Assembly (NCBI GenBank): GCA_026874595.1
Contig: CM049306.1
Span: forward strand, 106,715,142-106,779,141
Direction: 5' to 3'
Length of the DNA: 64,000 nucleotides
Origin: Sipunculus nudus
Lineage: Eukaryota; Annelida; Sipuncula; Golfingiida; Sipunculidae
Shown here: one piece after another, positions 4,632 to 47,198 of the stretch
Position numbering within the stretch: position 1 is the stretch's first letter
How the letters are laid out: each line of letters opens with the position of its first letter
Made by a program: the position numbers and the translations under genes
Notes under the pieces: model-generated
Told to the model about the DNA's origin: nothing
Seen by the model: the letters and a program-made list of their open reading frames with translations, nothing else
Database searches by the model: none

Positions 4632-5386
4632 CAGAATATACATTAATTTGACATTGGCGAACTGTTGGCTTTATTCATATATGGCAAGATGATATATTTC
4701 TTATTCCAAGGAAAACCTGTATCTAATTTGAAATCTTAAAGCTCGGTTATAGTACCAAAGTTGTGGAGGCCACCTGAGAGAACAGATGTGCTTTGTTTTG
4801 CAAGTTATATTGTATCAGATCATACGACTACATAAATCTCAGACTCACATTTCGTTTTCGCCCGAGATAAGAATTAAGGTGGTTTCTATTAAAACTGATT
4901 TGTCCATGTATCTAGAATATCTATAGGGATCGTGATCGATACTGAGCAGGTTACCTGGCAGCCCGAGATTAAATTAAACAGGATCAAACTTCTGTCTCGC
5001 TGTCGTGTTTATTGCTCACTCCTTTTCAATAGATAGAGAAAAAGGTTATCAGTTCACTACTCCTGTCCGGTGATGTCTCTCAGTCAAGACAGAAAGGGTT
5101 CAATTTAGTGATTCTAGTAGTGCTGCTAACAGCATTTACCCAATAATTTACTTGGCTGTCAATTGGTTCTGTCTGAACTCTGTCCTCAGATTCTCTTAAT
5201 TCAGCTTTGCCTAAGAAGTCCATAACGTGATTAAATTCAACTTTGCTGTACATTTATAACTTCTCAATTGCCGGTCTATGTATCTGAAAATCGTGATATC
5301 TACGAATGCGCCTCTGATACTTTTAACTTTGTTTGATCGGCAAGTACGGAAAGGAAAAAAAAAAAGGATTTTTTTTTAAACTCTCG
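4632..5386. other. No gene recognised
   Basis: Unique-looking AT-rich DNA between the TCTA/TA microsatellite and the poly(A) signal of the minus-strand gene. No coding signal, RNA gene or repeat is seen. Confidence 0.6.
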
Positions 5387-5392
5387 TTTATT
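5387..5392 (-). terminator. Poly(A) signal AATAAA, minus strand
   Basis: TTTATT on the plus strand reads AATAAA on the minus strand, about 175 nt past the stop codon of the last exon. A/T-rich tracts follow within 30 nt on the minus strand. This fits a 3' UTR ending near 5365. The hexamer is common in AT-rich DNA, so the call rests mainly on its position. Confidence 0.4.
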
Positions 5393-5564
5393 AAACAATA
5401 TCAAGTCTTACTTCCAGTCTATCGTTTAAACATTCCGTGTACAAATGTATATAGCAATAGTCTAATTACATGCTCGATATTAGGAATACTCATGCACGTT
5501 TAGGCAGTTTCATCTTTAATTATATAATGCACGCTTGTATTCATATAAACATTTGCTTTAAGAA

Positions 5565-5841
5565 CTACCTGGTTTGAACCTGAAAAATCGAAAAGGCAAC
5601 GTATGTAATTGACATATGTATTACCAAATAAATAAATTCCCTGTTAGTTATTTTAACAGGTCCTGAATTCCCTTTATTTTTAGCTTGATGGCGGCTACTT
5701 TTACCAGTCCTCTGATCGCACAATGACGTCACAATACTTGGCACCTGCGCGCGAACCAGTTCGCCGTACAATCTGGCGCCTGCCTGGGAACAGGGATATC
5801 CCAGAACATCGTGCAAACAATCAATCATTTTCTGGACTCCC
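5565..5841 (-). CDS. Terminal coding exon of 12-cysteine secreted-type protein (DUF1397-like)
   Basis: Minus-strand exon entered through a strong acceptor (TTTTATTCCTTTCAG). One leading G completes the AG left by the exon at 10149-10299, giving R. The frame then reads GVQKMIDCLHDVLGYPC and continues to SIVTSLC, supplying cysteines 10-12 of the domain. The C-x(8)-C-x(8)-C spacing, with a last C about 20-25 residues on, matches the C-terminal part of DUF1397 proteins as I recall them. After the last cysteine there is a polar Lys/Arg/Ser-rich stretch, then a hydrophobic tail, and a TAG at 5567-5565. A weak donor (ACTG followed by GTAAAA) just after the last cysteine could instead splice onward, so the 3' boundary is uncertain. 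Likely secreted; function unknown. Confidence 0.68.
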
Positions 5842-6254
5842 CTGAAAGGAATAAAAGGTAATATTAATTGAGGATTTATCAAATCTGATAAAAAGAACGA
5901 TGATCAATGTTTAAATGTTGCTTCGAAATTAAATAATATTTATATTTTTAGTAAACGTAACTTTTATGCACTTTAGTGACATTACAGGGAAACATTCCTA
6001 TTTCTTATATACTCTTCGTAAGTTAGTGATTATTGTATCCGCCAAAACGAAGTTTTGCCGATACTATGTTTTTGACCGGTTCCGCCGCCGCCGCCGCGTT
6101 CGTTTCCGGAGAACTCCTCTGAGACTACTGGACGGATTTTTCCGAAACTTACACCAATTATCGGGTCACATGTGAACTGGTGCCTAACCAATTGGCCTTG
6201 ACCTTTCCTCTCTGCCCAGCGTCCGTTTGTGCGTCTGTTTTCACACATAAACCC

Positions 6255-6808
6255 ACATATCTCGGGAACCGTTTGACCAATCAGGAAAAAAAAATTGTAC
6301 AAATGTAGCCCTTGGATAGCTTTATAACATACACATAAAACGGTGGCGCCACCAGCAACTATGTTTGCACAGTGTCCATCTGTTCATCTGCCTTGGGTTA
6401 AAATCACTCATATCTCTGCAGTGGTTTGACTAATTCACCTTAAATTCGGCATGCGTATACATCCTAGATAGCTTTCTTGATTTTATGACAGGTGGCGCCA
6501 CCTACATTCACGTTCACGCTGTAGACATTCAAGCTCATATCTCGGGACTCGTTCGACCAATCAGGAAAAATAGTTTACACAAATGTAGCCCTTTGATAGT
6601 TTTATAACATACACAAAAATTGTGGCGCCACCTGCAGCCATTTTTGCACAGCGTCCATCTGTTTGTCTGCTGTCGGATAAAATCACTCATATCTCTGCAA
6701 TGGTTTGACTTTTCCATTTGAAATCTTGCATATGTATACATCTTAGATAGTTTCTCGTTCAAAAACAGGTGGCGCCACCTACAATCATGATTACGTGGCA
6801 GACATCCA
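6255..6808. repeat. Two tandem 280-bp units built from four half-units with GGTGGCGCCACC
   Basis: Two copies (6255-6534 and 6535-6808) share CATATCTCGGGA, CCAATCAGGAAAAA, AATGTAGCCC and AAAATCACTCATATCTCTGC. Each copy consists of two related half-units, each ending in a near-perfect 12-bp palindrome GGTGGCGCCACC (6342, 6491, about 6620 and 6768). Upstream at 6060-6240 is a GC-rich flank with (CCG)5 that may belong to the same interspersed repeat. No coding capacity. Confidence 0.85.
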
Positions 6809-10148: not shown

Positions 10149-10299
10149 CTGCAGACTCTCATTTGTGAAGAAGCATTCCCTCGACCGTCCTCTACCGGGT
10201 TTTCTGCAAATACTCTGTCTAGGATCATTGAGAACTGGTGCTGGCAATGATAGGCGTCTGTCTGGTGGTTCTGGTAGCACGGCGCATGCCGACGATAAT
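10149..10299 (-). CDS. Internal coding exon of the 12-cysteine protein
   Basis: Minus-strand exon of 151 nt (2 + 49 codons + 2). The acceptor is CTATCTTCTATAG and the donor CAG followed by GTAACT. The leading AT joins the G left by the exon at 14503-14648 to give D. The frame reads YRRHAPCYQNHQTDAYHCQH and ends QMRVC, contributing three cysteines (7-9 of the domain) and an N-glycosylation sequon (NAS). A second frame in this exon is also free of stops, but only this one matches the phases of both neighbours and continues the cysteine framework. GC content is clearly above that of the flanking intron. Confidence 0.7.
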
Positions 10300-14502: not shown

Positions 14503-14648
14503 CGTTAAATGTCCGCCGATCTTCACAAAGCTGTCCCATACCCCCGCGTAAAGCTTTGAGCAGCGACTGTCCCACACGCCATTCAGAAGAACCTGTACGG
14601 CACGAGCTTACAAGGCCTAATACACACTTCAGAGTCTTCTGGTATGAT
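14503..14648 (-). CDS. Internal coding exon of the 12-cysteine protein
   Basis: Minus-strand exon of 146 nt (1 + 48 codons + 1). The acceptor has a pyrimidine tract (ATGTTCTTCCATTTCCAG) and the donor is AACG followed by GTGAGT. Of the three frames only this one is open. It reads SYQKTLKCVLGLVSSC, then a Gly/Leu-rich helix-like stretch to GGMGQLCEDRR, giving cysteines 4-6. The C-x(7)-C-x(6)-C rhythm, counted from the last cysteine of the upstream exon, followed by a long gap to a lone C, is the pattern I recall for the centre of DUF1397 haemolymph proteins. Its first base completes the AA of the exon at 47057-47198 (K); its last base pairs with AT of the exon at 10149-10299 (D). The upstream intron would be 32.4 kb. 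Confidence 0.75.
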
Positions 14649-16851
14649 CTGGAAATGGAAGAACATTAAACCTGTGAGGTTACATACAGTATTAAATGTC
14701 CAAGATGGGATCCTGATCAAGGTCTTAACCACATAGACACCCCTGATCAAGAGCGGCAGGAAAAAGCTCCAAGACTGAACAGGCCCGAAAGACCAGAAAA
14801 TAGGTTAGAGTTAGGGACTGACATCGTTGGTGACATTAGATTATAAATCAAACATTGTTTACTGTCACCTGTACCCATCCTGATAAGACACCATATGTTA
14901 TCATGCCCCAAGAAGCTTTGTATGATACCACTTGTATAATACCGGCCATAATCATTGTTTAATACCAATAAAGGAACCACTCACTGGGCACAAGAGAAGA
15001 GGCTCTAAGTTAAAATAAAGATATATCTGAATTTTATCCATATGTTGTTGATGCTGCTTTGACTGGCTTTAACCTTTCCATACCTATTTCCGGCTGTATA
15101 TATAACGAATCTTAATCAATCTTATTTGCACCTATCCAGGTAGCAGAGCTGCTGAAAGTGTGACCTTAAAGATTAGAATTTTATTCAGTACGTTTAAAAT
15201 CATCACACTGGCTATATATATTGTTCAGTGGCGTGTCATTAAAACATAAATAAAAAATCCTGTAAATAAAAACTATTCAATTGCTGGATTCCTTTGAACG
15301 GAACCAAGGAGTTTACATGAAACTCACATTACGTCCTTGATAGACAACTGGGTTTTATTAGTCGACAAATGAAAAACGTACTGACCTTACTTTAAAAAAT
15401 CAATACATTACCATTTAACACTCTGAAGCAAACTGCTGATGGTATCCAACTCCAGCTCATGAGAATAATACGACACCTCACATGGAGCAATATTGAAGAG
15501 CAGAAACTGGCTTAAAACCCGTTGTAAAGAAGTTTACTGAATTAAAATGCAATTCGTGAAGAAGGGAAAACCAATACATTACAACACCCGAGAGTGTTAA
15601 GCCTGAATTATTGATTACTTGGATGGTCTGTTACTTTTTTTACCGTCTCTGTCAGACTTGAAAGGCTTTGTGATTTGTCACAAAACGTCACATTAGTAAT
15701 TGGAAACGGTACAATTTAATGGACGAAGATGTAACATGTTTTATTAAACTACTGACTTTTTATAAGGGTTATATATGTAGGAAAAGTGTTAAAGAAATTG
15801 AGACATCACTAATGTCGCTTCATGACCCGTCAATTTGAAAGACACTGGAACTTAATACTGAAAATGGAAAAATTTCTTCAAAACGGTAGAATGACTTAAA
15901 GAACTTGGAATGGCCAAGAAAATGGTCAGTGGTTCAGATGATTGATAACATCTGGATTTAACCTGGGCATTTCAGGCTGATTGTGGTGACAAAAACTGTG
16001 ACGTTTAGAAAGATCAAAGTAGAATGGTTCGAGGAAACTACGCTGGTCCCAGTAGTTAAGTATATTTAGAAACTAAACAACACCTGATTCGGAAAAAAAG
16101 ATCCGGACCTACAGATAAAAAAGGTGACCGATCCGGACCCCAAATATCCCTGAAATTCATTGAAAACATTGGTGATTTTGACAACAGAATGAGGAAACAG
16201 CCGGGTCCGCAAATAGCAACCGCTTTCCGATTTAAGGTTTATTTATTTTAGCTTAATTTCAGCTTCTCGCTCGCGATAAAATGGACAACTGCACGGAAAC
16301 ACATCACATGGTTAGCATTTAATCAACAAAGTATTAGAACTCCAAATGTTCTCAACGGATTTAAATCATGGGCGGATGTTGAATGGACCAAGAAAAAAAA
16401 AACGATTATGTGTTGGGACTGATATTGTGTGCAGAAACAGCTGACATTTAAATTTAATTTTTCCTCACCAATGGTTTACTATTGTTCCTTTTTCCCAGGC
16501 TACATCCTTCCACAAATCTTCCAGACCTTTCAAATTCTTGTTCCTTGTCACTGAATGTTTATAAATTAGAAATAGCTGAAATTCTTGGCACTATGACTTT
16601 GGTACATATTGAACTAAAAATCTGCATTCCATGGAAATTCAACCCTTAGACCTGTTAGCATTCCATTATTTGGCCCATATTTATAGGTTCAGTCGTGCAT
16701 ATATAAGTGACTGAACATTAGTGAATATTCATTGATGACCGTGCTGAACACGGACCATCTGCCGGATCAACACGAATATCTAACCTGGCCATTCCCGAAA
16801 TGCCCTGAAAATTTCATGATATTCCATTCATGATTGCAGGAGTGTTATTGT

Positions 16852-16865
16852 TAACACACACACAC

Positions 16866-16898
<33 letters not shown>
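16852..16898. repeat. (CA)n microsatellite
   Basis: CA units with one CCCT interruption. Confidence 0.95.
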
Positions 16899-16903
<5 letters not shown>

Positions 16904-17269
16904 GAATGAATGCTTACTCTCCTGGCGGAGGCAATAAGAGGACTGTAGTTGTGCAGTCACCAGATGTAACGTTAGCTTAAGAGAAATGTTGATTTGACAT
17001 GCAGACTGGATTGTCTGCACATTCATGCGTTTTTATACATGAAATCTCAGTGTGTTATATTAATATTACTGCCTCTGTTCAGTGAAAATGATGATCTTTG
17101 CGGTGCAGTCCTGAAGGACTCAAAGGAGACCATTTCGGCAAAATGTAAAATGTTCGGTGAATGATCATGTACTTTCATCGCCACACTGTCAAAATTTATT
17201 GACTGGAATTGAGTTCAAATATCAGCTAAGGAGCTAAGAAGCTGTTTCGTGGTTGGACCCTTACCTAGG

Positions 17270-17350
17270 GTGTTCCCTTTGCAGGCTTACAAACTAGTGC
17301 GCCTTGCGGGAGTTCCTCGATGGCATGACCCAGCAATAGGATTGAGTACA
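17270..17350 (+). mobile_element. Fragment of SINE body
   Basis: Shares CTTTGCAGGCTTA and GTTCCTCGRTGGYATGACCC with the SINE at 32659-33012. The tRNA-like head and the tail are not recognisable. Confidence 0.6.
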
Positions 17351-19815
17351 CACAAATGATTACTGTTTAGTATGATATTCAAACAGCTTTTTATTGTTTT
17401 ATCTGGTAATGAAATGACGCAAGGCATAAGAAAAGTGAACAATTATCTACAGTTCGTGGGTCCAACCAACAGGACACTCCTATAAAGATGCTCAGACGAT
17501 GTTGAAGCGCTTTTTAAATCGTCAAATACTTTAGTCACTTATTTTTTTCCAAATATAGGTTTCTGTCAATCCTGAACAAGCAACAGTGAAGTCAAATTGA
17601 TCCTTTATCAAATAATCCCGTATTGTTATACAGTTAACGTTTTAAGTGGATTTGGCCTCTTAAATTATTTTCAGATACTGTTCCTTTTTTATTTCACAAA
17701 TGTTTGGGATGATAAAACAGTTTACTGTATATTCTGTGCACGTTATACATAACGATTTATTTAAGGGAACTCTTTGATACTATGATCCTTAATTGTCTAT
17801 CACTGCGGCAATCAGATTGATCAATGGTGGTGGAACGAAATATAATGTGTGACAGCAACAGTTTGACACAATCTTTTGGGGGTATTTTTTCAATGTAGCC
17901 TTAGACATTTGAATGTTAGCTAGGTATTGAAAAATGACCAAGTAGTGTGAACTGCGTGTTCTCGCGAGATTTTGTCGCGAAATGAGCTCCACTAAGCGCG
18001 TGGCACTCGGCGACTCAAAACTCCATGGACTGTGATGAGTGAAACTGCTCGCTCTTTGATCCTATTTATCAGGGGACTGAAAAGTATAGCGACCCGGTTT
18101 TATCGCCGTCGGAAAAAGGAATCAGTGTCCCCAAGGAGTCTCAGTCGTTTCAGAATTTGTCTTGTGTCCACTGAAATCGCGGACTGTTAAAGCATATGGC
18201 GGAGACAGAAATTTTTTTTATGTACCTCAGATGATGTTAACTACATCTTTGTAGTTCTGTACCGTAATAACACATACGACGTTAAATCTTGTTCCCCCCG
18301 AGGGTCTGGACCACAGGTGCTTGGTACAATGCGCGATATTACAAGCATCACAGGGCCCATCCTTCGTCATCTATAACTAACCACCCTTCCCACTTATTAA
18401 ACTTGGTTCTCTTACTTTTTTTCACTGCCTATCCACCTAAATCCACCGGACTATATATGACTGGAACAGATTCTTTCTGGCCGGTAAAACAAACATGCAT
18501 CCGCTTTTGCCAGCGTTCCACTGGGAGTAGATAGTCCTGGCCGGACACAATGTTTACAATTTAATCGAGTTTAAATTAATTATCTCACATAATTTAAGTC
18601 AACATCACTTAAGTCAACATCATGGTGGAAACATCAATATCATCACAAGCTTTTGATATAATGACCAATGGTGTTGATACATTTAACAGAGCATGGGTAG
18701 AAACACTGTAGACATGAAACAGCCAGCAGACGTGGTAAATTTAACCCCATCTTGATCTAGAAAATAATAATCATCTAAAAGAAGCAGGAGACTAAAATCA
18801 TGAGTATTGTCTGGATTTCTAGAGCAAGCATGTAGACCAGACTAATCAATTTAATGGCTGGACCCAAAAAAAATGACATCAATTCGAAAATTCCTCCTTC
18901 AAAGGGAGGCCTTATTGCTTGGTTCCGCGGAAGCTCAGGCGATGTAACTGCTGACCGGTTTAATAGTCCATGTTTGAACTCTGTACTGGTGTATGATAAT
19001 GGAAAGCGGGTGTCTCAAAATATTCCTTCTTTGCGTTAAGTTTACTGCATATAAAATGTACAGTTTGGTGTTTATCATTGATATATTCCAGTGTATGAAC
19101 CACCCTGTGTATAATTAGTCCAGCGTATGTAGACAGTTGTAACAACTCAAGATAAAGCTCTCACCCTGACAGTTCTCAGGCAACAAGATTTGATTAAATT
19201 TATTGATCATTAATTCATTAAATTTAAACCTTTCACACAATGGACATTTTTTACTTCCTTTGTCTGTTAGAAGCTCTCATCTATTGAAGCAGGATGGATT
19301 ATCAAAGAATTTAATTAACACGCGTATATTTGTCGAAGCAAATTAGCGCTTTTATTTACGTTTGTGTGTTAATAACATCTGAAAGATAGTCTTTATTTTT
19401 TTTTATTTTTATGTAACCGTCTCCCAAAATTAAAGGAATTATGTAATTCATTCATTCTTACATCCATGTCTTCTTGCAACATTATAACACAACTGGCCGG
19501 AAATATTTTCCAGAAATATCGTAGATACATTAAAGATATTGACTGCACTTAGGTTGTTAACGAACATTATAAAAACATCAGTTAATCTGCAAAGTCTTTG
19601 TTGAATTTTTCTTTAATTTTGCACATATATTTATCTTGGGGAATTGGGTTGACGCCATCTACTTTTTTGACAATTTAATGTGTTTTTGTTTGAATCAAGG
19701 AATATATTTTCGGTCACCGTGCAAAATGTAAAGACATATAGGCTATATAAGAGAAAATTATTAACTACCGCAGTAGGTAATCAGATATTTAACACCCCCG
19801 CCGCATATATTTATG

Positions 19816-19822
19816 TTTATAT

Positions 19823-19859
<37 letters not shown>
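19816..19859. repeat. (TA)n microsatellite, target of an LTR insertion
   Basis: TA-rich tract interrupted by the LTR that starts at 19860; ATAT resumes immediately after the LTR at 20659. Confidence 0.85.
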
Positions 19860-19861
<2 letters not shown>

Positions 19862-20132
19862 TTACAGGTGCCATTTTTACTGTGTGACACGGGCGTAACT
19901 CGTGTTGTGACACCCTCGCCGGTCGTTTGTTACATTCTCTGTATAATCCGTACTGGTTGAACTCTCGTTGTCATGCTAACTTGGTGCGAGCTCACGTGTA
20001 CACCTACACCTGGTATGTAGAGACACTCACAGTGATGTTCTTCTAGATGATTCCTGTGGCGCGTGTTTACTTATTGTGTAAGATCTTTTTGACTGTTCGA
20101 GAAGTGGAAAATTCTCGGCTTGAGGTGAAGAG

Positions 20133-30560: not shown

Positions 30561-32658
30561 AATAAAATAACATAAAGGACATATACCTGACAGTAAATGC
30601 TGAAAATTTCATAAAGATACCTTTAACGGTTACAGAGTTAATGTCTCATATAGATTCATGTCAAAATGTGGAAAAAAATGCAAAATTAATCTGAACAGTA
30701 GGAGTGTGACAATCCACAGGCTAATCTGAACAGTAAAGGGTTAATCAGTTTTGTCTATGTACATGCAATGTCACATGCAATATTCATTACAGTATGATAT
30801 CTACACTCTGCTACCAGACTATAAGTGTAGGAGTTATATCCATCCACACAGTCTGTATCAGCCGGCTAGAGTGCGCTGGAGTAAAATGCATTCAGTACAG
30901 AAACGAATCGATAACGTGCTACCTTCTTTATGTCAAGCTTGAAGCCTCTCAATAGTTATAAATGTTTTATCATCTTCAATGTAGTTTTCAGTGTTTCTAT
31001 AGATGCACAAGTGTAGTGTACGAATTAATTTTAGGTACATAATACCACTGTATACGACTGTTAAAATAAGTAGCATGCATGAGAATTGGAATACCAATTA
31101 GAAGACTAATAACATATAACAGTACATACTCATTAAGTGTAAAATATAAATGACCACAGACGGTGACCACAGACTAATTTGCGCAGGTTTACACATACAA
31201 AAATCATTTTATATGAACTCAATTCAGTCCAAGGCTTACATAACGAGTACCGTGAGGCATTTCACAGTGACGAATCTTGCAGCACCAAGAAAATATATGA
31301 TCATCGATCGAGTTAATGTCGCTCCGGGTTTTCCGGTTTCATCTTTAAAAAAGGCCAGTGTTTGCCTCTAGCATCGCGCATTTCGCTCATGGCCGTAACG
31401 AAACAAGAGATACAGACGTGTAATAAGCTTATTTTACGTATCGTTTATCCCACAATAAATTCGAGGCATGCAGTCATAGTCATAAATTACGGCGACGTGC
31501 AGATGATTATATTTCACGAGTCAAATTTACCCTCATCCGCCCCTAAAACACACACAACACACACACACGGAGGACGGGATGAGTTAATCACTGAAAGAAC
31601 CAATAGTTCACATAACAAGCTTTATGCGTTGAAAAACAGCATATCTTACACAAGTCAATGCAATTTACAGTTTTATTCGCAAATAACTGCCTGTATACGT
31701 ATTATATTATGCGGTCAAATTTAGCTTATTATGTCAGGTGCTCAGTTGAGATTTCTCATTTGACAAGGATTGGTGACGCTTTGTCAGATGAGTTTGCTCA
31801 ATATTAGATTTTTTCACTTACCGCCCCTGATTTTGAAAGGCGAAATTATTAATTCCTTCAGGCATTTTTTATTGTGTATATCCTAAAAAAACCTACCCTG
31901 TCGAGATTATAGGAAGGTGTTAATAGATCCAACATCCTGTTCAGATCATTGTTTTCTAAATACTTTGTGTACATACCCCTCGTGTACGGAACATCTCCTT
32001 GCTGAACTTGCAGAGTGGTAAAACAATGCTGTACTTCTTTCTTCATATAATTTCCTGTTTGATTGCCAGGATTCCATCCCATAATTATGTTATTAGTCCA
32101 TTAACATTTGCCTTCATCTGGGACAGCAACTGTTACGTCTTCCTAACGTGTTTGTGGTAATCGTTTTGAAAGCACCTGCTGCAAAGAGGGCATGTCACTA
32201 CTCGTTCCCTCCGGGGAGTACTTCGTATCCTACTGCCCTGTCACATGAAAGCTGTTTTTTTCCTGTACCATTCTACTCATGTAGAGGCGGGTCGTACAGT
32301 AGTGCCGAGCTTTAAATTTCGCCGTTTCGAGGTACAAACCCCAGTTACTGACAAGCGGGATGAAATTTTCACTTAGACACAGAAATTAACTTCTACTCCA
32401 TCACGTCTCCTAAGGTTTATTTATTTTATAAATGTCATTTTTCAAAACAGACCCAACTCATTGAGTTTAACGAAAGGAAGTAAATGAACTGCAGCAACAG
32501 GATAGATTGGATAAGGTTTTATTCTATAATACTTTAAAAATTATACTTGTGTACTTTCATAAATAAATTGGCTAGAATTTTTATATAAATTTAAAATGAA
32601 TAAACGAAAATAACAGACTTCCCTAAAGTGATGATAAGGCGCAGCACCCTGCCCCAGT

Positions 32659-33012
32659 GCTTCTAGGGTCTAGGGGTAGAGCACAGATTCAAAACGGAAG
32701 ATTGTGAGATCAAATCTAAGCCGAGGCAGTGAGATTTTTTAAGGTAGGTCCCAATCAAGGATCAGCGCTTTGCAGGCTTAATGGGCTGGCCGTGCCCAAA
32801 GGCCTTGTTTCACTCACGAACAGGTTCCTCGGTAGTATGACCCAGCCATGGAGACGATTACACGCCCAGAGCCCGCAGGTGCAGTAGTCACCATGCCTGG
32901 TAAACAGCAGGACATAAAAGGAGAGGAAATTGGAGTGGAATTCTGCAGATGTACATACGCAGTAAAGCTAGCATTTGAAAACATGGAGGAGATTACCTCC
33001 AACAAAAAAGAA
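32659..33012 (+). mobile_element. tRNA-derived SINE, near full length
   Basis: Plus-strand relative of the SINE at 22105-22502. The head has TCTAGGGGTAGAGC and a decayed B box (AGATCAAATCT). The body has GTTCCTCGGTAGTATGACCC and ATTACACGCCCAG. The 3' part has CTGCAGATGTACAT, GGAGG...CCTCC and an A-rich end AACAAAAAAGAA. No clear target duplication was found, so it is older or rearranged. The short open frames 32848-33051 and 32814-33005 lie in it and are not genes. Confidence 0.85.
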
Positions 33013-33350
33013 GCGGCATCAGGAGCAACAGTGGTGTCAAGCCCCTGGTGAACACAAAGTATAAGAGTGTATGGTCCTCCTCCAAGAGCTGACTTGTGTA
33101 TCGCTTACGTAAATTAATTATCTCCACATTCGACTCTGTGAGATAATGTGTATATATTACACACTGCACAACGCGCGCGTTTCCGATACGACCTCGGCAG
33201 CTGTACATTTAACCAAACATACCTCCGAAGACAGTTAAAACGACCATCATCCCTCTAACACGTCTACTATTTTGATGCCAGACGTGGCCCTGTTTGTATA
33301 AAAAGTGTATATTAGAATGATATATCCCCGTGTTAAATAAAACAAGATTC

Positions 33351-33352
<2 letters not shown>

Positions 33353-33410
<58 letters not shown>
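33353..33410. repeat. (TA)n microsatellite
   Basis: About 28 TA units. Confidence 0.95.
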
Positions 33411-33415
<5 letters not shown>

Positions 33416-34488
33416 TTTACATATCATTATTGTTCTCTCCTTACTCTGAAGTCTAAGCTTAAATAAAAATTAAAACACACATGAATCACTAGAGTAAGAC
33501 TACATTTATTCAGGTTTGGTGAAATATTTCCACGCAAAAAAAAATTCTGAAATTTACCATCATAGCACGAAAACGCATCATTGGTTTTGCTGTCAAGCGA
33601 AGTTAAATGGCCTTCAAGTTCTTTTCACAAGAGCATGTAATTCATCATTGATCACTTCATTACCGCTCTGAAAACCCAACTAACTGATCGAACGAATTGA
33701 ACGAAATTCCCAGGCAACCACAAACTGTGTGATAATTGCCAATCTTTGCTGCCATTATGATTCATAATGATTAATTATTATTGTTTATACCATTTATTTA
33801 GTTAAAACCGTTTATCTCTCGAGCAAATTGGCAAGGTGACCTTGGAAATTGGACGGTGTGAATCCTGAGACTTTTGAATGATTAGGGTAGACATGGGAAT
33901 TTTGGTTCATTGGTGTTATCAATGAAATTGACTCCACTAAATAACTAGCATGTATCATCAGGTACAAACATGTTATCCTGTATGTCTTTGAAATTATTTG
34001 TTTTCGATGATTGTTCTAGAATAGAATAAAAGTAATACTTACCTACGATTCGGAATGATATTTTGAAAATTCTCGTAATTATATTTAAAAAAAGACACCA
34101 ATTAATAACATATTATTAGTCTGATGCTGTAAATGATAATAATGATAATTTATATCATGGTATCTTTAGGAACAAAATAATAACTTCCAATTGGCAGACA
34201 GCGTGCGTTACAGGTGCTCTTTTTATTATGTGACGCGGGCGTGGCTCCTGTTGTGGCACTCGTGTCTGGCCGTATCTATTACATTCTATGTTTAATTCGT
34301 ACTGGTTGAACTCTCGTTGTCATGTAAGCCTTGGCCTTTCACGCCTGGTCGTGGGTCACGTGATGACCCTGGTGTGTGGGGATACACACGGCTATGTTCT
34401 TCTCGATAATTCCTGAAATGCGTGTTTACTGTGTAGGATCCTTAAGACTGTTCGAGAAGTGGAAAATTCTCGGCTTGAGGTGTGAAGG

Positions 34489-34496
34489 TATATAAA
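34489..34496 (+). promoter_or_regulatory. TATA box of LTR copy 2
   Basis: TATATAAA followed by GGGGCTGTG, at the same place as in copy 1. Confidence 0.6.
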
Positions 34497-34854
34497 GGGG
34501 CTGTGAGAGCAGGAAGAGAGGGGAAGAGAGAGCAGCAGAGCAGATTCCAGCGGACGCAGAAGCGTGTGTCAGGACCTTATCCGACAAATGGGGCAATAAT
34601 AGATTTTCAAAGACTTTCTCCTTGATTTTATGCATTTGGACTTCAGTTTACTTTCTGGATTGTTGCAAGAGCTTTACACTGGACTGTCATTCTCCGAGAG
34701 TTTACATTTAAAGGACTTATCGTTGTGATGGTTTTGGTATTCAGGTACTGTGCACATTATTTTTCTATGTGATTGCATTGACTTGTTGCTATACCGCTGT
34801 TTTACTGTATAATTTTATTGATTTAGTGTATTGTATTGTTCGGTTTGTTTTAAG

Positions 34855-34860
34855 AATAAA
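34855..34860 (+). terminator. Poly(A) signal of LTR copy 2
   Basis: AATAAA within TTTAAGAATAAATTATAG, matching copy 1. Confidence 0.55.
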
Positions 34861-35402
34861 TTATAGTTATTTGTTAACAAAAAACCACTGACTTCTTTTT
34901 CATTCCCCTAGACATTTCAAATTTGTGTTTATCACGCATACGTGATCTGTTTATATTAGGTTCCGTAACACGTGTCATTGGCGTATCTTTGTATTTTATG
35001 ACAGATTAACCATATTAATATTTAATTACTGTGGCTTACACCGTAACACGTGCTGTTCGAAGTTCTCATTTACATGACCATCATTAACCCCATGACTGAT
35101 ATAACTGAGGCTATGGTATGTTGAGAGTTATATAAAATGCTGGTGTAGAACCAGGGTAGCTTTAGAAAGACCTTCATTTGGATCATTATTTATATGTTAT
35201 TTGGCCTAATTACATTAATTAACTGCATGTGATGTCATTTCCTTTCGGTTAAAATTATTTCAAGCTTTGTCTTTAATGAATTATCACTTATTCTTATGTT
35301 AAAAATGAGAAATCGAATTGCGTTACATCATAATTATGATTAAATAAAAAATATCCGGTTTGCAAAACACTGCAGGCATTAGTTTTTTTTATAATTTTTT
35401 AT

Positions 35403-35424
35403 ATATTTTTTATATATATTTATA

Positions 35425-35465
<41 letters not shown>
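35403..35465. repeat. (TA)n / (TATATTTA)n microsatellite
   Basis: TATATTTA units passing into pure TA. Confidence 0.9.
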
Positions 35466-35469
<4 letters not shown>

Positions 35470-37675
35470 ATTTGTCATATTAAATAACGTTGAACGGCTT
35501 AACGTTAAACCAAAGGTTTTATACGAGGCCATCAAAAAGCGAAGTCGTAGGTCTCGGTGAGTTGAGATTAAAGTGGCAGTATTAGATCATGTGACCAGGG
35601 GCAAAAGATCACGTGACTTTGACAGAGACCGTGAGAGACAAGATACTGAAGGTCACTGTCAAAGTCATCAGTTCTTTATAAAAAATGTCTAGTTATGTGA
35701 TAGAATTATAAATCAGCTGGCTTATGTAGCAAATAAAAAATACCAGCGATATTCTTTTACAGCAAATTTCATCTCAATAATGTGAACTGCATCGTTTCAC
35801 CTTTATACGGATTATTTTTTTTTTAACCTTCTCCGCTGGTACATTCATGTCACACACATGGGCGCGGGAACTCTGATTTGAAGCCTTGTTTTACGGTGGA
35901 ACTATCAGTATCAGATGAATCGGCTGCCGCGTAAATTATAGAAAAGGTTGTACCGGTAAAGATAGATGAGGATTTCCCGGGGCCAGTATCATTGTGTGTT
36001 TTTTTTCAGAGTTTGATGGACATGAGTTTCCTTGGTGGTAAGGTCACCGGACATCATAGAGCAAGCTGATGTATATTAACAACCTGCTTGAACGAGGCAG
36101 GTATCATCACATAATGTATACAGATATAGGTTGGCTACATTGCCTTGGGATCCACTTCAAGCCGCTTGTATGATTGATGCAACATTTTTTCCGGAGCGTG
36201 GAATCAACAAACATTCTTCTGTCCAATAAAATAACCATAATAAACAGAAAAGGGAAAAATATTACATAAATAGGAAAAAGAAACAGTTGGAATTATTTGT
36301 ATTAAGACAGTAAACAATATAAAATCTTTATCATCATAGTTACGCCGTATTGTATAGTGGTTGTTGTACGCAGTTCTTGGAATGAAGCTATTTTTTACAG
36401 TTTCATAGATACATATATTTCAATTTAACCAACGTTTGTGGCGTTCACGTTAGACATATTTGCCTTACTTTGCAGCGACGTCGCTTTGTAAGCGTACGAT
36501 TATAAATGATCAAAAATAAAGCATCACGTGGCGCTCATTCTTTCTAGATACCTCATACATATTAAATACTTTATTATATTATATGTATTATAATACATAT
36601 AAGCCTATTAGGCAGAGAACCTATATTTCAAAGAGATACATTGGTTAATTTCGTGTTCCAAGCATAAAATGATTGATAAATGGAGTTAACGAGCTGTATA
36701 GCCAAGGGCCTCAAAATCTAGCACGGCCATTGCTTCCTGTTAGAAAAAAAAAATGAAAGTTTATACCGTTAATCTTATTTCATTTTACTGATAAAAAGAG
36801 GTACAAAAGCCTGTTATGACTTGTATATAGTGTCATGTTGAAATTACTCTATCTTTGTTCTGTGTGAACGTCTGCATACTTTTGTTATCTTATTAAACAA
36901 CATAAATTTATAAGCAATATCGTTTTCAATGCTTATCTTTCAATAATATTTTACTTTTATAGAGCAGATAAAGACGAAAACTAGGTTTAGTTTCTCAATG
37001 TCAGATGTTATTTAACTCTGGCCATCCCCAAGTCTGCTTGCCCGGGTGCTCCCGGTGCTACTGTCTGGTACAGTCTCCAAGGGTCAAGGTTGATAACCAT
37101 GCTGAAAATTAATGTTTATTCGTCGGATGTGGTTATATGGACACACAGACGGTTGTGTACCCGGGCGGCCCTCCAAGGAGTAAGATTTACAAAACGTTAA
37201 TCTCTACTCCACCAAAATCCTCTTCCATCAAAATCTAGGCAAGTTAAATCTGCCTTACTGCAGGAAATATCAATATCTTTTCATATCTGTAGCACTGGTT
37301 ATACTGGTTTATCTTCTCATATTCCGCCTTCCTGAATGTGCTCAAGGTTTTGTTTTGACCACCAATTTTCAGACTAACGTATATTTCAAGTATTACCCTT
37401 TTTCATTATTTATAAAATCAAATAGCATTTATACCAATAGAACGTTTTACTGCAGGACTACGGCCCATGACAAGTGTTGTTATTACAAAGAAAACGTCGA
37501 ACACGATGTATTCAGAGATCATAGGTTACTTCTCCGACCACATAGGCCATTAAAATACAAAAACGATAATAGAAAAAAAAAGAATAATAAAAATAATAAT
37601 GACAATAATAATGTGGAATTTTTTAAAGATATTATAGCATTATAAGAATATTATTGTATTATCATAATGATATTG

Positions 37676-37713
37676 TATTATTATTATTATTATTATTATC
37701 ATTATTATTATTA
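37676..37713. repeat. (TTA)n microsatellite
   Basis: About 12 TTA units with one TCA interruption, beside an A/AAT-rich stretch at 37570-37610. Confidence 0.9.
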
Positions 37714-40700
37714 CGAAGAAAATTATAGCACCACCATTTCCTTTCACCCCTATGTCAACATCCCCTTTTCTAGGTGCATTAGCTCTCGCGAATGAGGCCC
37801 TAAATAAGAAAAAATAAATAAATAAAAACAATATTTCAATCTAAAACATTATGTAATAAGTACAAAATGCCCCCTGTGGATCGTCTGTATTACTTCTATA
37901 ACAAAAAGTATCTGGTCGTTCCTCAGTGAGCAAACACAATTTACATTGTTTATAGACTTTGGACATGCAGTCCGAATCTGACGTGGAGGCTAAACTACTC
38001 ATATATCTAACATTAGAGCCGGCATATGCGGGGACTGCATGCTGAGAGACCTTGATATATTCTTACATCGTTGGTTTTCTTTAATTGTGAAATATCCGGT
38101 CCCGCAATGCTTCTTCAAAGAAGCCACCTTCAGAACCCCGCCCCCTCTCCACACACACCATCGGATGAAGCAATTAAACCAGGAAAGAACCATGGTTCCA
38201 GTTGAAACCACATGGGTTCTGAAAAGAACCTTAAAAAAACTTTTTCTAAAAGTGTTATTTTTTTTATTGGTAAATCTATTGGCCCGAAGTCTGAAAAATG
38301 AATTGTCTGAGTTATCTCATGGCATTTTGAACCACACTGATTTATTCCTGGACCCGCAGTGGATCTGGTATCTACCCGGATTTGGTCAATCATGGATAAG
38401 TTTATCTGTGTGCTATGCACGCAAAACATAAGATTAAACATGTTCATATTAATCGTGACAAGGAGATCTATTTTGAGGGATACGGGGGCTGGTGGCAGGA
38501 TTTATGGAGAAGGGTTGAGGTGCTACTAGTTATATTATTTGTCAAATATGATGCCTCCTCAAGCCCTGTTGGAAAGACTTTAGCGTGAGAGTCGGCAGTC
38601 CGTCTACGGTAGGCCCATCATGGCGCGAACCTGAACTGAACGCACTCTGTGATCTCACCCGCCATGAACCAGAGTGATGTATTTTATACCCTTTAGCTTG
38701 GCTTTGGATACAGAATCTACTAAAGGACACCATGTGAAAAATGACTTGTCACGCAGATAGAACATTTCCAACTGAACTACAGAGAAACCTAATGCAATAC
38801 CAGTCTGACATGCAATTCTTCTTGACGTTCATCCTCCAAGCCACGGATTGTGATGGTTTGAACTTATAATGTAGACATTAACAGTGAGTCTCATAATCGG
38901 GCAACAAGCATATTAATTACAAATACAATCAAAAACGATTCGTCACAGCGGACGGTCACTGTGAACAGATGTTCCACACCGTAAAACACAATTTAAGGGA
39001 ATGGTTTATTAGAATAAGAAGGATTTTTGGAAAACAAGTTCAAATGTTCTGTCAAGAATGTAAAGGATTACAAAGTTTATTAAAGCAGAAGCGATTATAG
39101 GACACAAGTAAAAGAGTGATTGAATGTAAAAGAATCATGGTTTGGTTTTCATATATCTGTTATTTGTGTGTGCAGACGGGCAGGTATAAAGAATCTGCAG
39201 ATAATGAGCATAAAAAAGTTAGGTTCAGTTCATTGGCCTTTGAATCATAAGGAGAGAGAAAAGTTATGTAGGTAACAAAAATGTGAACAAAATGCTAGAC
39301 AGGTTGTTGAGCTCATTACGCCACAGACAGTAAAAACAGCGTCATGGGGACCATGGGTGACTCGTAAAGACAAACCGAGGGGCTTAATATCTAAACAAGC
39401 CTTCCTCCGTGTTATGACGCTGGAAAGCCTGTCACTGTTATATATAGCTTCCAGACGGGTTATAGGTTATAAAAGCTTACCTGGCGACTGGCCGTCTATG
39501 GTAGGTAATATAAAAATAGGGGTTTATATTGACTGAACATCTGCCCACTGAGTTTATTAATGGACGCTGTGGTTTATACACCAGTCTGTGTGTCCGTGTG
39601 ATTTTAAGAGCTGGCCAATCACAGAAGTTTGAACTAAAAAAAACATAGGTGCCTATATCCAGTTAAACTTTGACCAGCTCCCGTGGTTAACGGCCTCAAC
39701 ACAAGGCTCAAAGCAGGGAAAGGTGGGATTTTTCACGGTCGCACACGCAATCGTTAATCTTTAAGCAAAATATTGGTTTACCTTTTTTTGTGTAGTCTAC
39801 CGTTCTTTCGCACATATTATTTATCTAGAAATTATATTATTATTTACATGCAGAAGTATGATTAAGACATGTTTTATAGGTAACCAGGAAAACGCCTCTT
39901 TGTGAATGTTTATCACACATAAAAACGTGGCAAGCACAATCGCCCCAAGCGAGGAAGTATTGTTTCTTAAACGCTTGTTACCAGCAGCACTCTAATTGTT
40001 TTCTGTGGACTCCACATGTAGAGACTGGCGAAGGTTGCCACTGTAATTTTATGGAGCTAGGTGTGTACTAAGGTATCATACCTAAGCCCAGGACAACAGC
40101 GATCGCATTTTAAATCCCAGTACAAGCTACATGTTCTTCCCGTTTACATATATATGGACAAGTTGCCAAAATATTTTAACACGTGACTCTGTCTACTCAC
40201 TCAATAAGCCCGACCTCTGAAAACAAATGGAAAACCCTACAGTCCAGGTTAAGATGTTTTGATAGGGAACAATCTGTTGTAAAGCTATATTCTAATACAC
40301 TCGATATGCGTTTCGTGAATTTCAATTTAAGTTGTTGCATAACGTTTAAGCAACATGAGATAAGCTATACCTCTGGAAAGTAACTGATAATAAGCGATGT
40401 AATTACTGTTTTGTTGAGGGGGAACAGTGGAACACTAATAATGTCAGTGCCATATTTCAATAACATTTTATCTACACATAAAAACTTTTGTCAAGAGAGC
40501 TAATATCCATATGCCAGATTTAAACAAAGAGGTAATTACATGGGTGTGGGAAACATGAACCGGTAATTATCGACATGTTATAATTAATTTATAAATATTT
40601 GGTATACAGACCCTGGTACAGTTTGTGTGAAAAATACAGAATTGTTAGAAAAAAAGTTGCTGAGAAAAACACACTTTGTGTATACATGAGTAAAAATGGA

Positions 40701-41591
40701 AGGAGTGTCTTACCTTGTTAAGGTATTTATAACTCCTGGACAGTATAACTGTGCTGTTAACTCACAAATGTTATATGTATTTTATGTAGAGATTCACATA
40801 GGTAGGTATATTTGTTATTTGTTAACTGTTATAGAGTTTACTGCATGTTATTTAGGATTGTTTATTACCACCATATTGTAATTAAACAAATGTTTCAATT
40901 AAAATGAAAAAATGCTGTCGATGATAACAACAAGTAGAGGAAGGAAAACATGTGAATAATTGACTGAGACATAATTTAAGAGAGAAAAAAACTTGTATGG
41001 GATATTCTTTGTTGTCAGCATAGCTGCGCCTGAAATAGTTTTAAAACCTATCCAGATATTTAAAACAAATGTGTTATGATTAAACTGGCTCTGCATATTC
41101 ATCTATACTTATTCATGCAGGCACCCTATAATCAGCCTGATGATAAGGAGAATGGGTAATGATGACTTATTTATTTATTTTTAACTGTGTTGCCCTGTAA
41201 GGATCTGCTGTCATTGAGGCAGAATACAAATATATATCTGTCTGGGGGTAATGGTTCTGTGTTGCATGATGTAACCATTGATTTCCACACTCAATGCCGG
41301 CAGTCCATGCGACACCACAGTTACGGCTTGGCGTAGAAATTTATGACCACTGAATGACGCGCATCCTAATCTTGAGACAATCTTCTCAGAATAACTAACG
41401 TTAAGAAAATGTCCCCGATTACTCAGTGGCGGATACAGGATGTAAGAGGGGCGGGGGTGACACCCTGGCAAAGCTAGATAATCAACTATATGCTAAATTT
41501 AAAATTAAACTCCTGCATGCCAAAGAATGGGAAGAAAACGGCATCAAACCAAATTCCGCACGCTTTTGGTTAGATTTTACAGTCAGCTATT

Positions 41592-42030
41592 CAAGTGCCT
41601 TACCTGTAGAATTTATGTGATTTCAGTCTTACATTATGTACATACCAATGAGCTACAGGTAATTCCTGCTATGAAAGGTTCTTGTAATGCCTCAATGACG
41701 GATGTATGATCTGGTTTATCTACAAACTGTTTGTTTAGTAACATACACTCATGTTCACAATCAGGAAAACCATAAAACACATTGTGCAGGTGCCTGGCTG
41801 CAACTGTGGGGAAGCTGAAAGGTCACCAACTACAAAACGTCTTTTACAAAACTCTGGTTAGTTTGATTTGCCGTCAGATGTCATTGTTGAATGTGTATGA
41901 ATTAATCTAACGGCCACCCACTCCCCATATTATAAACACATAGATACAAACAAAACAAACAACCTGTGCATCGTTCGGCTGGCGTTTTCAAGACTATCTT
42001 TTAGAGAAGGTTTTGTTAATAGAAGGTAAA
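41592..42030 (+). repeat. Interspersed repeat, copy 1
   Basis: Diverged but collinear with 55140-55562 over about 430 bp, for example ATGAGCTACAGGTAATTCCTG versus ATGAGCTAAAGGTAATTCTGG, and GTTTATCTACAAACTGTTTG versus GTTTATCAACAACGTGTTTG. Confidence 0.75.
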
Positions 42031-42109
42031 TCTGGAAATAGACATTTAAGCGTAGAATATTCTATTTCCCAGATGTTTTGGTAAAAGAAAGATGGGGCGA
42101 CGCACTCTG

Positions 42110-42122
42110 CCCCCCCCCCCCC
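42110..42122. repeat. poly(C) run, 13 nt
   Basis: Uninterrupted C run within the possible transposon relic. Confidence 0.95.
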
Positions 42123-43106
42123 GACAATCCCTTAATTCGCCCCCGCTACCAGTTCGCGCTTTCACGGTGAGCCTGATTTACTATCAGATAGCACGATCAT
42201 AAGTTAAACATTATCATAGGAACTTTATCCCTGGGTGGTGTCTTAATCTTATTCTATATATAATCCACGAAATCTACAAGATGCGATCTTGAACCGAAAT
42301 TTTTCTTTGAAACTAATACATGTATACCTATGTGTTATGTTTCAAACATAACTGTGGAATAAATATTTAAGAGTTTGTAGTTGTGCCAAACATATTGTCG
42401 ACGTCCATGATGCAGCATTACACAAATATAAAGAGAAGGACACGTCCATAGTTCTTGATCAGCAAAACAGGACATCCAGATTACGTTGTAAGAGGAACAG
42501 TGAGGATAAAAAAAAGTCCGGTTTGCGCTTTAGCGTTTCTTTTCTCATATTTTCATAGCCTGGTACAAAATCTTTGTAAAGAGTTTCTGCTCTGTATGTT
42601 GTTTTTGGGATTGTTTGACCATTGACTTGGTTAGTCATAAACTCTGGAATGAGATCATTAATAAAGGATATGATAGGATTAACGGAACGACCCCTGTCAG
42701 CTCTGCTACTGTGGACCTTGGATCGGCCCCTGTAAGGACTATTGTGTGAAGGTGAGACCAAGATTTGAAACCCCACCGGGCCGGGGACAAGGTTTCATCC
42801 AGCATTCAACCCTTACTTGCAATGCTTATATCCGGTTATTCCATAAGACATTAACAGAAAACGTCTTGAAAATCGGTTTAATATTTTAAAATATACCCAG
42901 AAGGAGACTGTGTCGTCCTTGAAAATAAAAAAGCTAAATTTGAAAAAAAAGCTTTGTATTACAGAGGACTAGTTCCACTTTGCTCTACATTGGTAGGTCC
43001 ATTCCACTCATATAATCATAGCTAGGTATTCTTGAAGGCGTCCACCTCAAAACGTAATCTTATTTAAGCCTGGAGGGGATCATTAATTCCGTTACAGTAA
43101 AGTCAT

Positions 43107-43323
43107 ACAATCAAGTCTGTGGCAGCTACGCTTTTGCAGACCTTGATTCAGCGATCCGTTCTGGCGTCTATCTCATGACAAATTATTAAGCCAGTTAGTT
43201 TTCGGGCCGAAAGTACCATTGCCACACAAGTTCATTTGCTTTGCTCATTTTTCCTGAAACAGTCGCCAGAATTACTAGCTGAATCAAGGTCTGTGAAGGC
43301 AGAGCTATCACAAACTTGATAGT
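43107..43323. repeat. Foldback element with 60-bp arms
   Basis: The arm 43107-43166 (ATCAAGTCTG...CAGACCTTGATTCAGC...TTCTGGCG) matches the reverse complement of 43264-43323 with scattered differences, separated by about 97 bp. Each arm is itself a small hairpin, because ATCAAGTCTG is nearly the complement of CAGACCTTGAT. It may be a MITE or a hairpin transcript source. Confidence 0.75.
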
Positions 43324-46300
43324 ATGAAGATGCAGAATTTCTTCTGAAGAATTTTATGTGTTTTGAGTAAATATGACTGCCAAGGAATCATATACATTGT
43401 TCCGGTACTGGCGCATTAAATACCATCCTTTGTTACCTCTCTGTTTTTTTTTTACTGGCACGTATTGGTACATCGCGTTTTTTATTTCTTAGGGACCTGT
43501 AACATCATGAAGGCAATGTTTATGCTATTGCATCCTCTGGCTGATATGTTAAAACACCATCATAAATTCAACCCTCACCAGCACTTAGTCAGCTGTACAG
43601 AGGGCATCATAAAGCACTCTTACTAGGCTTCTAACCGTATTTTACATTATCTCAAATGGCGTGACTCTAACTTTCCATAGATTTCTATGAATTTTCCAGC
43701 ACAGGAAACCCATCTTATGACCTCGGGGAACATATGGCCTTTCATTATTTGGTCATTAGTCTTTTTGAACTCATCTGCCTAAAAGCCTTGGGAGCCACAT
43801 AGCGACGTCGCGCCGGCCAGCGGGCGTCATACAACCGCTCATTAAACTAAGAAGTCTTGTAACTACACGGACCAAATGTCTCTTATATGGTGCTTCTGTA
43901 CTTAAAGGGGGCGCCAAAAATTAAATCTCGCTTATTTACAGAGACCTGGAGAAAAAGTTTAATTTTCGGGACTGTAGAGGATCATATGCAGTACCCAATA
44001 TATGTCCGTGGTTCGGGGGTAGAGAGTGAGAAGGGGACATAACACACAGCACGCATTTTAAACTTACAGCAAGATGTAATTGATCAGTAAAACTTAATAT
44101 TCACCATTGATCAAATATGCAGAGCTCTTATCCTGCAATGGCTTTATTTTAAGCGCACACGGCAGAACAATACGCTGGTTTTGTCCATTTATCCGAATTC
44201 CACTTCCTTCACACAAAAAGATTCGTGAAATCGGTTTATTAGTTTCTGCAAAGTAAAAAAAATCGGCCAGACATTGCTGAAATATAGCCTCTTGATAGTG
44301 TTAAAATATAGCCATCAGTTTCCTATTGATTTTCATCTAAATAATTTAAACTTGTCTTAGTACTTAAAACCTCTGAGGTTTTAACACCATGTTTTAGGAA
44401 ATAATTTCTACATTGCAGGGTATTATTCCACTTCATTTTCGCGACTGGCTTCATTACAACACACGGTGGCTGACACAAATAAAAAAAAACAATCTTAGGA
44501 ATTAAACTTGAGATCTCGACATAATAAATCGTAGATAAAAAAACAACAAAGCTAAATAATTTCTGTGGCAGTAGGAAGCACCGCGTGGCCATGGCCGATG
44601 ATCATGAGGTCTTGAAGGTCACCATAAAAACACCACAATACATAGGTATAGTATATATCAGTTACACGGTATATCATGTGATACACAGAGGAACAGTTCA
44701 TCTCACTAACCCAATCCACCTCTACCTTTACATCAGTAGTTCCCATGTCTCGTCGGTTATCGCGGGACCCAAGTAACTAGACCTTGTTGACACACGTGCC
44801 TGTTATCATGACTCCGCCAGTAGCAGATATTACATCTTGGCAGAAGGACGCCTGACCGGACAAGGGTCACCGTCTAACGTTTATGTGCCATGCTAGTAAC
44901 CAGACGGTCCGGGGCATTTCGTGTTATGAGTAAAACTTGCAGTGTCCTTTCCCGTCAGGACTAGGGAGAATAAAAAAATATTTACGAAAGGGTCCTTTTT
45001 TTGAGTGAAAAAATGTTTATTTTAAGAGCAGTATATTCAGCTTTCCATTACTTCTGAATGCCCAGAAATGAATTAACTACGTCCTACACATACACAAACA
45101 TATGTTAATAGAACATGAACAAAGGAAAGCGGGGGCCGAGGGTCAAACGAAAAGAATTTCTTTTCCCCGAATGCATGTATACAGAGGGATTTAACTAATG
45201 ATAATATATTGTCTTTCAGATTGAAACTTTGAGCTTTTATCATCATATTTTATTTCTAATGAATAGTGTGTTTATGTGCAAGTATACCTTGAGATCTCCC
45301 AATTTCCAATTACGCAAGTCCTGATCCTGAAGGTTTAAATGTCTCAAATCATCTTAGATTTGGTATGGGCGTCATGCCTTTGTAATTCACCTGTTCAGAT
45401 GAAGAAAAAAAAAGAATGTACCGTGATCCCAAGAACCCGGCTAGTCATTGATTAACTGTGCTGTTGATGTTCTTTTCAAAAGACGTTTATTCAATAAAAC
45501 AGCGGCATTCACGCAAACGATGTAAATCCAAGCCAACATGCCCAAAGTGCTGATATGAAGGACGTTGCATGTTGATGACCATATGACCTCCGACCTCGGG
45601 CCTTTCGAGCAGTGGCTATTCGACTGGCTTCCGACCAGTGGGTAATAAGGCTACTTTAATTCAGTAATCCATTTACTACCCAAGACTTGATTCCAAATCG
45701 TTTATTCAGATAAGAAATCAGTGTTTGACTTTTGGGGTACAGTGGTTCGAGCGTTGTTCTTTTGGCAAAAAGTGAAATCTAAGCAGGACCTCAAACAGAC
45801 GGAACCCAGGAATTACACGTAAAAATGGCAGGTAAAAAATGCAAGGACAAAACGTACAGCAAAAATAACAAATAAGGGATGTAAAAAATGACAAGTTTCC
45901 AAATATATATATATATACGTATGCATATATGTGAGTATAATTTTCCATATGAATCTGATCGGTGCGTTTTAGTAAATACCGTTTAAGGTGATGTTGTTCT
46001 GTGTCATTTTTTACATTTGAAAGAACTACAATCAGGGCTCCCACCGTATCTGACAACATAAAAAATTACCAGCTGGTAACAAATGGCGCTGATTTACTAA
46101 AGTGTGACCTCCTATTAACTCTTTATCGTGATCTATTGCTAATTTAAGATCGCCCGACACAAGCGAATAGCCTTGCCATGCAGCCTGATATCTGTTCTTT
46201 AAAATATACTTAATTCCCCTGGTGCGACTTCCGACGATTTGCTGCGGTTTATTTGATATCGAGAGAATTCGCTGCTTGTGAGAGACTCCACAACTAATTT

Positions 46301-46956
46301 CTGTCGTCGCAGTTCGCAGCATTGGAAATTGTAGCAAATGTTAATGTTTTGGTCATGTTAACAATTGTTGACACGTCGTGGCACATCGAATGTTATTCTA
46401 CAGCAAACAGTATCATGTCATTGCAACAGTTGAAAAAGTGGCAAATCGTAGACGGTCTCAGATAATTATAAGTAAACCAGTACACATCCGTCACAAACTG
46501 GGACAGAGTTAAGTTTTCATTTCCTGTTACTCCTTAAGATTATGCATGGCAGCAAATGGTGGCGTATAAATCGTTGGAAAAATACGCACGATATGAGACC
46601 TGCATTTGGAACACGAAACTGCTGCCTGGTTTCAGTTACCATTCTTGCATGGTGGTGATATAACATATAAATAATTGTGTAAGTTGACATGAACCTTTAT
46701 CAGTATTAAAATAGATTCAACTTTATATCCAGAATACAGAAGAGAAGTGTAAATTATTCAGATTAATCTTCTTCTAACTGGAATGACGTCATGTAAGCCA
46801 CGTCAAGTTTACTTTGATAGCCACTGAGAGGTGTATTTTAAAATGATTTCAAATCACTTTACAAAAGTTTTAGCTATTTGACAACAGGTTATTTTTAAAA
46901 ATGTAGGTCTTGTCTCATATGATGACACCCGTTGGATCTCAAGATCACGTTTATAT

Positions 46957-46957
46957 C

Positions 46958-46998
<41 letters not shown>
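46957..46998. repeat. (TA)n(TG)n microsatellite
   Basis: Short TA run followed by about 14 TG units, roughly 60 bp beyond the donor of the exon at 47057. Confidence 0.95.
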
Positions 46999-47056
46999 TG
47001 TACGTCTTGTACAGAGAACACGTCAGCGGAGTGATGTGATGTTAGGTAACACTTAC

Positions 47057-47198
47057 TTGCACGAGGGGTCGAGGGTGGCCTGCGTCAGCTTCCCGGAGAG
47101 AGTGAGATTTGTGGGTTGATCCAAGGTGTGTAGACATTCCTGAAGGCGCGGTAAAATAACTGTAGCCCTCTGACAGCTCCCGTGAACCAGCGACAGAC
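47057..47198 (-). CDS. Most upstream coding exon seen of the 12-cysteine protein
   Basis: Minus-strand exon of 142 nt (2 + 46 codons + 2). The acceptor is TGTGTGTATGTCTTCAG and the donor CAA followed by GTAAGT. The frame reads LSLVHGSCQRATVILPRLQE, then CLHTLDQPTNLTLSGKLTQ and TLDPSC. That gives cysteines 1-3 and an NLT sequon. A second frame is also open, but only this one yields a phase match and a continuing cysteine framework with the exon at 14503-14648. It enters in phase 1, so an upstream exon with start codon and signal peptide is expected; none could be identified between here and 64 kb. A 35-bp VNTR begins about 10 bp upstream of the acceptor. Confidence 0.7.

Follow-up and report, generated by a model that had tools for sequence, protein, structure and literature searches.

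The question raised by this locus is whether a gene can be recognized in a stretch of DNA where no single open reading frame reveals it and, if so, what kind of protein it would encode. The window, i.e. the whole stretch of 64,000 nucleotides that was analysed, comes from Sipunculus nudus, a sipunculan annelid (Annelida, Sipuncula), and not from a probable mollusc as the initial annotation had supposed. That annotation proposed four minus-strand exons, spread over 42 kb and joining in frame, for a secreted-type protein with 12 cysteines and two N-glycosylation sequons. The same borders were recovered from AG..GT blocks (e1 to e4 in Table 1); with a slash marking the splice point, the junctions read AA/A between e1 and e2, G/AT between e2 and e3 and AG/G between e3 and e4, and the joined frame is open across all four exons. 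We counted 12 cysteines in it, three in each exon, and two sequons, NLT in e1 and NAS in e3. The four-exon observation is confirmed, and it describes a real-looking spliced gene. Drawn from the window only, this model is without its first coding exon, which lies outside, and probably also without its true last exon.

Table 1. Features of the gene model and of its alternative end. Coordinates are window positions, except for the signal-peptide exon, which is placed on the chromosome.
Feature	Coordinates	Strand	Description
Signal-peptide exon	Chr01 106,784,979-106,784,931	-	5.8 kb beyond the window; donor GCAG/GTAAGCC; ends in phase 1
e1, coding exon 2 in the complete model	47057..47198	-	142 nt; starts in phase 1, ends in phase 2; Cys 1-3; NLT
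e1-e2 intron	14649..47056	-	32.4 kb; deduced from the exon borders
e2	14503..14648	-	146 nt; starts in phase 2, ends in phase 1; Cys 4-6
e3	10149..10299	-	151 nt; starts in phase 1, ends in phase 2; Cys 7-9; NAS; HAPC parallels HGSC in e1
e4	5705..5841	-	137 nt; starts in phase 2, ends in phase 1 at donor CTG/GTAAAA; Cys 10-12
e5, probable last coding part	5500..5579	-	GSNQVVLKANVYMNTSVHYIIKDETA, then stop TAA; preceded by a 125-nt intron; inferred
Read-through tail of e4	5565..5704	-	46 codons to TAG; AT-rich; disfavoured
AATAAA, possible poly(A) signal	5387..5392	-	motif only

Since exon e1 opens with an acceptor and two codon bases, secretion of the protein would call for a further exon upstream that ends in phase 1. 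A matching signal-peptide exon was found outside the window, which bears out the secreted character attributed to the protein. It codes for MDIRDIALRLLGVLIA plus one base; joined to e1, which carries the signal peptide on as LSLVHG/SC, it reads MDIRDIALRLLGVLIAGLSLVHGSC, and the joined protein starts with MDIRDIALRLLGVLIAG followed by LSLVHGSC. It is likely that MDIRDIALRLLGVLIAGLSLVHGSC makes a good signal peptide, with a cut predicted at VHG/SC by the -3,-1 rule. The leader of this exon (150 nt) has a GC content of 0.58-0.68, an in-frame stop is present upstream of the ATG, and GC drops downstream of the donor. How exceptional such an exon appears depends on the limits applied. Under loose limits there are 27 upstream candidates, among which it comes first by donor and sixth by hydropathy. 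The strict limits (hydropathy 2.5, donor 11), chosen after the exon had been seen, leave one candidate in 46.8 kb upstream, none in 161,198 control bases and an average of 0.01 in simulations. With the donor limit at 8 and hydropathy still at 2.5, two candidates are found upstream, none in the controls and 0.11 in simulations; still looser limits give three, versus 0.87 expected from the controls and 0.73 in simulations, these two sets of thresholds also having been fixed afterwards.

At the other extremity, the initial annotation let the frame run without a stop into a terminal exon with a poly(A) signal. The frame is indeed open there, and AATAAA motifs are present (in addition to the one in Table 1, the minus strand has AATAAA at 5678 and ATTAAA at 5520), but this ending requires read-through of a moderate donor (score 4.8, 93rd percentile) into AT-rich sequence, GC beyond the e4 donor (past 5705) being ∼0.3. 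Judged by its splice site and its phase, a spliced fifth exon, e5, is the likelier end of the gene: its acceptor scores 8.8 (99.8th percentile), phase 1 is kept, as at the end of e2, and a third sequon is brought in. That the real gene ends by read-through of e4, giving the protein a hydrophobic tail, seems unlikely to us; the 46 further open codons, the donor of only moderate strength and the near-neutral codon score of e5 (-2.2 over 26 codons) are in its favour, but the tail has a codon score of -7.4 over its 46 codons as well as its low GC, and the strong acceptor at 5579 has to be left unused.

The layout of the four central exons shows a regularity of its own. Both e1+e2 (142+146) and e3+e4 (151+137) amount to 288 nt, a coincidence that came to notice only after the end of e4 had been fixed. 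Each pair has intron phases 1-2-1 and 3+3 cysteines, and in each the phase 2 intron splits the codon directly after the third cysteine of the half, i.e. after Cys 3 (TGC AA/A) and Cys 9 (TGC AG/G). The cysteine spacings are 12-24-8-7-24 in e1+e2 and 10-30-8-8-23 in e3+e4, and both halves contain HGSC or HAPC, C[KR]xxQKxxxC and LC[ED][DQ]R. On global alignment of the halves, the observed score was reached in 39 of 5000 shuffles, or in 91 when the cysteines were held in place; on local alignment it was reached in 591 and 881 of 5000, respectively. Not all of the six cysteines are paired in the best global alignment, nor in the one by MAFFT. The protein thus looks like a duplicated six-cysteine module, a likely interpretation that rests on layout, the sequence similarity being weak.

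With E values up to 10 allowed, the spliced protein matched none of the 24,736 Pfam models, in a search in which the HMMER filters drop most weak matches, and it matched no NCBIfam family either. Among PDB sequences there was one match at chance level, to an antibody light chain (E 0.45), and none with a profile of the two modules; phage records gave no match. Two families of secreted proteins deserve discussion nonetheless. DUF19 (PF01579) proteins have 12 cysteines, and the spliced protein with its signal exon is likewise a 12-cysteine secreted protein. Membership of this class, which would be compatible with the gene model, is in our opinion improbable: cysteine number and size agree, and the class is annotated in at least one protein of the Pacific oyster, but the spliced protein is without a PF01579 match. 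The oyster protein is a table entry in a paper, ‘DUF19 domain-containing protein’, with a value of 19 that appears to be in kDa. Literature on DUF19 in annelids yielded nothing relevant in the passages available, one of which concerned DUF1986. A genome search with PF01579 gave a single match, on contig C4, which is another chromosome, of 22.6 bits, or 23.3 together with its neighbours, for a cut-off of 23.2; it contains an in-frame TAA, six frames were read, and it is probably due to chance.

The second family is DUF1397 (PF07165), the 27-kDa haemolymph glycoproteins, to which the initial annotation had likened the protein. The order of its cysteines, with a similar run near the C-terminus, may resemble that of DUF1397. 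The membership did not survive the comparison with Pfam: run with HMMER up to E 10, neither the whole protein nor any of three pieces matched PF07165 (207 positions), and when the genome was searched exon by exon, an insensitive procedure, nothing exceeded the 25.7-bit cut-off. The lone genome match (E 9.8) lies on another chromosome, three forward frames having been read, and was judged to be chance. Nor is DUF1397 extended to molluscs by this gene. In the literature, nothing was found under ‘PF07165’ and nothing joining 27 kDa hemolymph proteins with molluscs. A true DUF1397 member too diverged for HMMER would still be compatible with the gene model, and size, secretion signal and high cysteine count are similar; given the searches just described, and a literature that by its titles concerns arthropods, we hold this to be quite unlikely.

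Genome searches with the spliced protein or with the second module recovered the exons of the gene itself only (the first filter was loose, and 5 and 2 candidates, respectively, were scored), so that the gene is apparently single-copy. Elsewhere in the window little was found. Seven long open frames gave one weak Pfam match, below the cut-off (PF20226, E 0.054); 100 open frames of at least 72 aa, two minisatellite stretches being left out, gave no Pfam family with an E of 0.01 or less; and Rfam, at gathering scores, and tRNA scans gave nothing. Haemocyanin PF14830 had no match, and the controls were equally without one, so that this result was given no weight as proof. Three hemerythrin matches were found in the genome, on unplaced contigs (C118 and C128), and they cover almost the complete domain within a single open frame; these contigs of the assembly may be bacterial. 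Several repeats occur in the window. At 1909-4303 lies a 42-bp minisatellite (∼57 copies, 88% match); its unit length being divisible by 3, it produces a plus-strand open frame of 800 aa, which is no evidence of a gene. A 158-bp tandem repeat (∼2.9 copies, 77% match) covers 61574-62029, and a GC-rich block at 22277-22500, where candidate splice borders with high scores occur on both strands, is possibly a repeat too. Finally, a 35-bp minisatellite of ∼36 copies (47211-48469) ends 12 bases upstream of the first base of e1, and variation in its length could affect splicing.

How far do the exons themselves stand out from chance? Using a generic splice-site score with a GC term, we ranked by distinct borders the 13,630 open AG..GT blocks of both strands: e1 is 4th, e2 5th and e4 6th (a shortened e4 is 3rd), and e3 is 340th, a low rank due to its weak acceptor. 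Relative to the minus-strand AG and GT sites of the window, acceptor and donor lie at the 98.8th and 99.2nd percentile in e1 and at the 97.5th and 99.9th in e2; the e3 acceptor is at the 58th and its donor at the 99.3rd, and the e4 acceptor is at the 99.9th. Places with a block of at least 120 nt and a score of at least 17, a threshold chosen once the scores were known, number three on the minus strand of the window (e1, e2 and e4) and none on the plus strand. In 100 simulated order-3 Markov strands the mean was 0.17 and the maximum 1, none having three, and the 40 kb flanks contain one such place on both strands combined. The exons have a GC content of 0.51-0.56 (0.56 in e1), whereas that of 4-kb stretches of the window is 0.34-0.39; among 146-base stretches the exons lie at the 96.6th to 99.8th percentile.

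Two other measures were less favourable. In a dynamic programming of whole chains (splice score plus GC), the claimed chain obtained 21.9, below the mean of 31.2 for 40 simulated windows. The best minus-strand chain scored 56.3 with 16 blocks, that of the plus strand 29.6, and the maximum of the 40 simulated windows was 55.2; the best minus-strand chain crosses all four exon places, but reads e1 in a different phase and uses shorter forms of e2 and e3. This crude score counts against the claimed chain, which it does not single out, and is not discriminating. The second measure is a codon model trained on 27 of 30 kinase loci from the same genome (L016, L029 and L037 were left out for stops). 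Among the three sense frames, the expected one comes out best in e2 and e4 and, by a small margin, in e3; in e1 it does not, another sense frame scoring 4.5 there versus 0.1 for the expected one. Open segments of the window scoring as high were 1330 of 8112 for e1, 569 of 7283 for e2, 439 of 6898 for e3 and 65 of 8561 for e4; with a composition-matched background these numbers become 6725, 3092, 2175 and 342, so that e4 alone stands out and e1 to e3 are unremarkable. At most, the codon evidence speaks mildly for the exons, and for e1 it is poor. A reading without a gene, in which open blocks form a chain by chance, would agree with the low chain score, the weak e3 acceptor and the mild codon evidence, but it is very unlikely in view of the three top-ranked exons on one strand, the signal-peptide exon that fits them from beyond the window and the identical lengths and phases of the two modules.

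The best explanation would then be a normally spliced S. nudus gene of ∼65 kb, which appears to be single-copy and to code for a secreted glycoprotein rich in disulfides. We put this gene model no higher than about 0.73, and leave a small share to the chance chain, because both alignments of the halves pair the cysteines incompletely and the codon counts of e1 to e3 against the composition-matched background are unremarkable. Borders, phases, open frame, cysteine count, sequons and signal-like start are read from the sequence. On this model there would be six coding exons: the signal-peptide exon, the four exons forming two tandem six-cysteine modules and a short tail exon. The transcript would be spliced as modelled and its product would enter the secretory pathway, the signal peptide presumably being cut near VHG/SC, to leave a mature protein of ∼211 aa, 23.6 kDa and pI 8.7 as computed with e5. 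The fold is predicted to comprise two homologous modules and about six disulfides, probably three per module, and the protein may be N-glycosylated and released into the coelomic fluid or another extracellular space. On general grounds, a binding or scaffold/structural role seems most likely, rather than that of an enzyme; by analogy with DUF19, to which the comparison extends no further than size, secretion and cysteine count, the protein might, among several possibilities, have a humoral function or serve in defence. It is probably an ordinary orphan secreted-protein gene, of a believable but fairly ordinary kind. If the model holds, the sipunculan gene set gains one secreted protein rich in cysteine whose history of duplication can be read, and the locus shows that genes with exons of ∼140 nt and an intron of more than 30 kb escape open-frame scans.

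Comparison with known systems can be made at three levels. With the DUF1397 haemolymph glycoproteins the protein shares its being small, secreted and cysteine-rich, but it differs in having no profile match; a two-module exon-pair layout is not known for that family. To DUF19 it is alike in having 12 cysteines and a signal peptide and in falling in the class of 140-220 aa, and differs in staying without a PF01579 profile match. That size class is the one given for C. elegans, where 42 of 51 DUF19 proteins have a signal peptide and 14 of the 51 genes are upregulated on infection. The third level is that of the class 1-1 exon-shuffled extracellular modules, from which the six-cysteine module differs in matching no Pfam family, but to which it is alike in the phase 1 introns that flank it, in the phase 1 end of the signal-peptide exon and in its proposed tandem copies; phase 1 is found at the ends of the signal exon, of e2 and of e4, the last as deduced from a moderate donor. 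One may speculate, as a doubtful proposition, that the two halves are copies of a six-cysteine class 1-1 exon-pair module whose ancient doubling also gave rise to the 12-cysteine frameworks of DUF19- and DUF1397-like secreted proteins elsewhere among protostomes, the intron phases of the present gene still bearing its trace. Most likely, the two-module form proposed here originated when an exon pair of phase 1-1 was duplicated in tandem, which is how extracellular modules usually multiply through exon shuffling.
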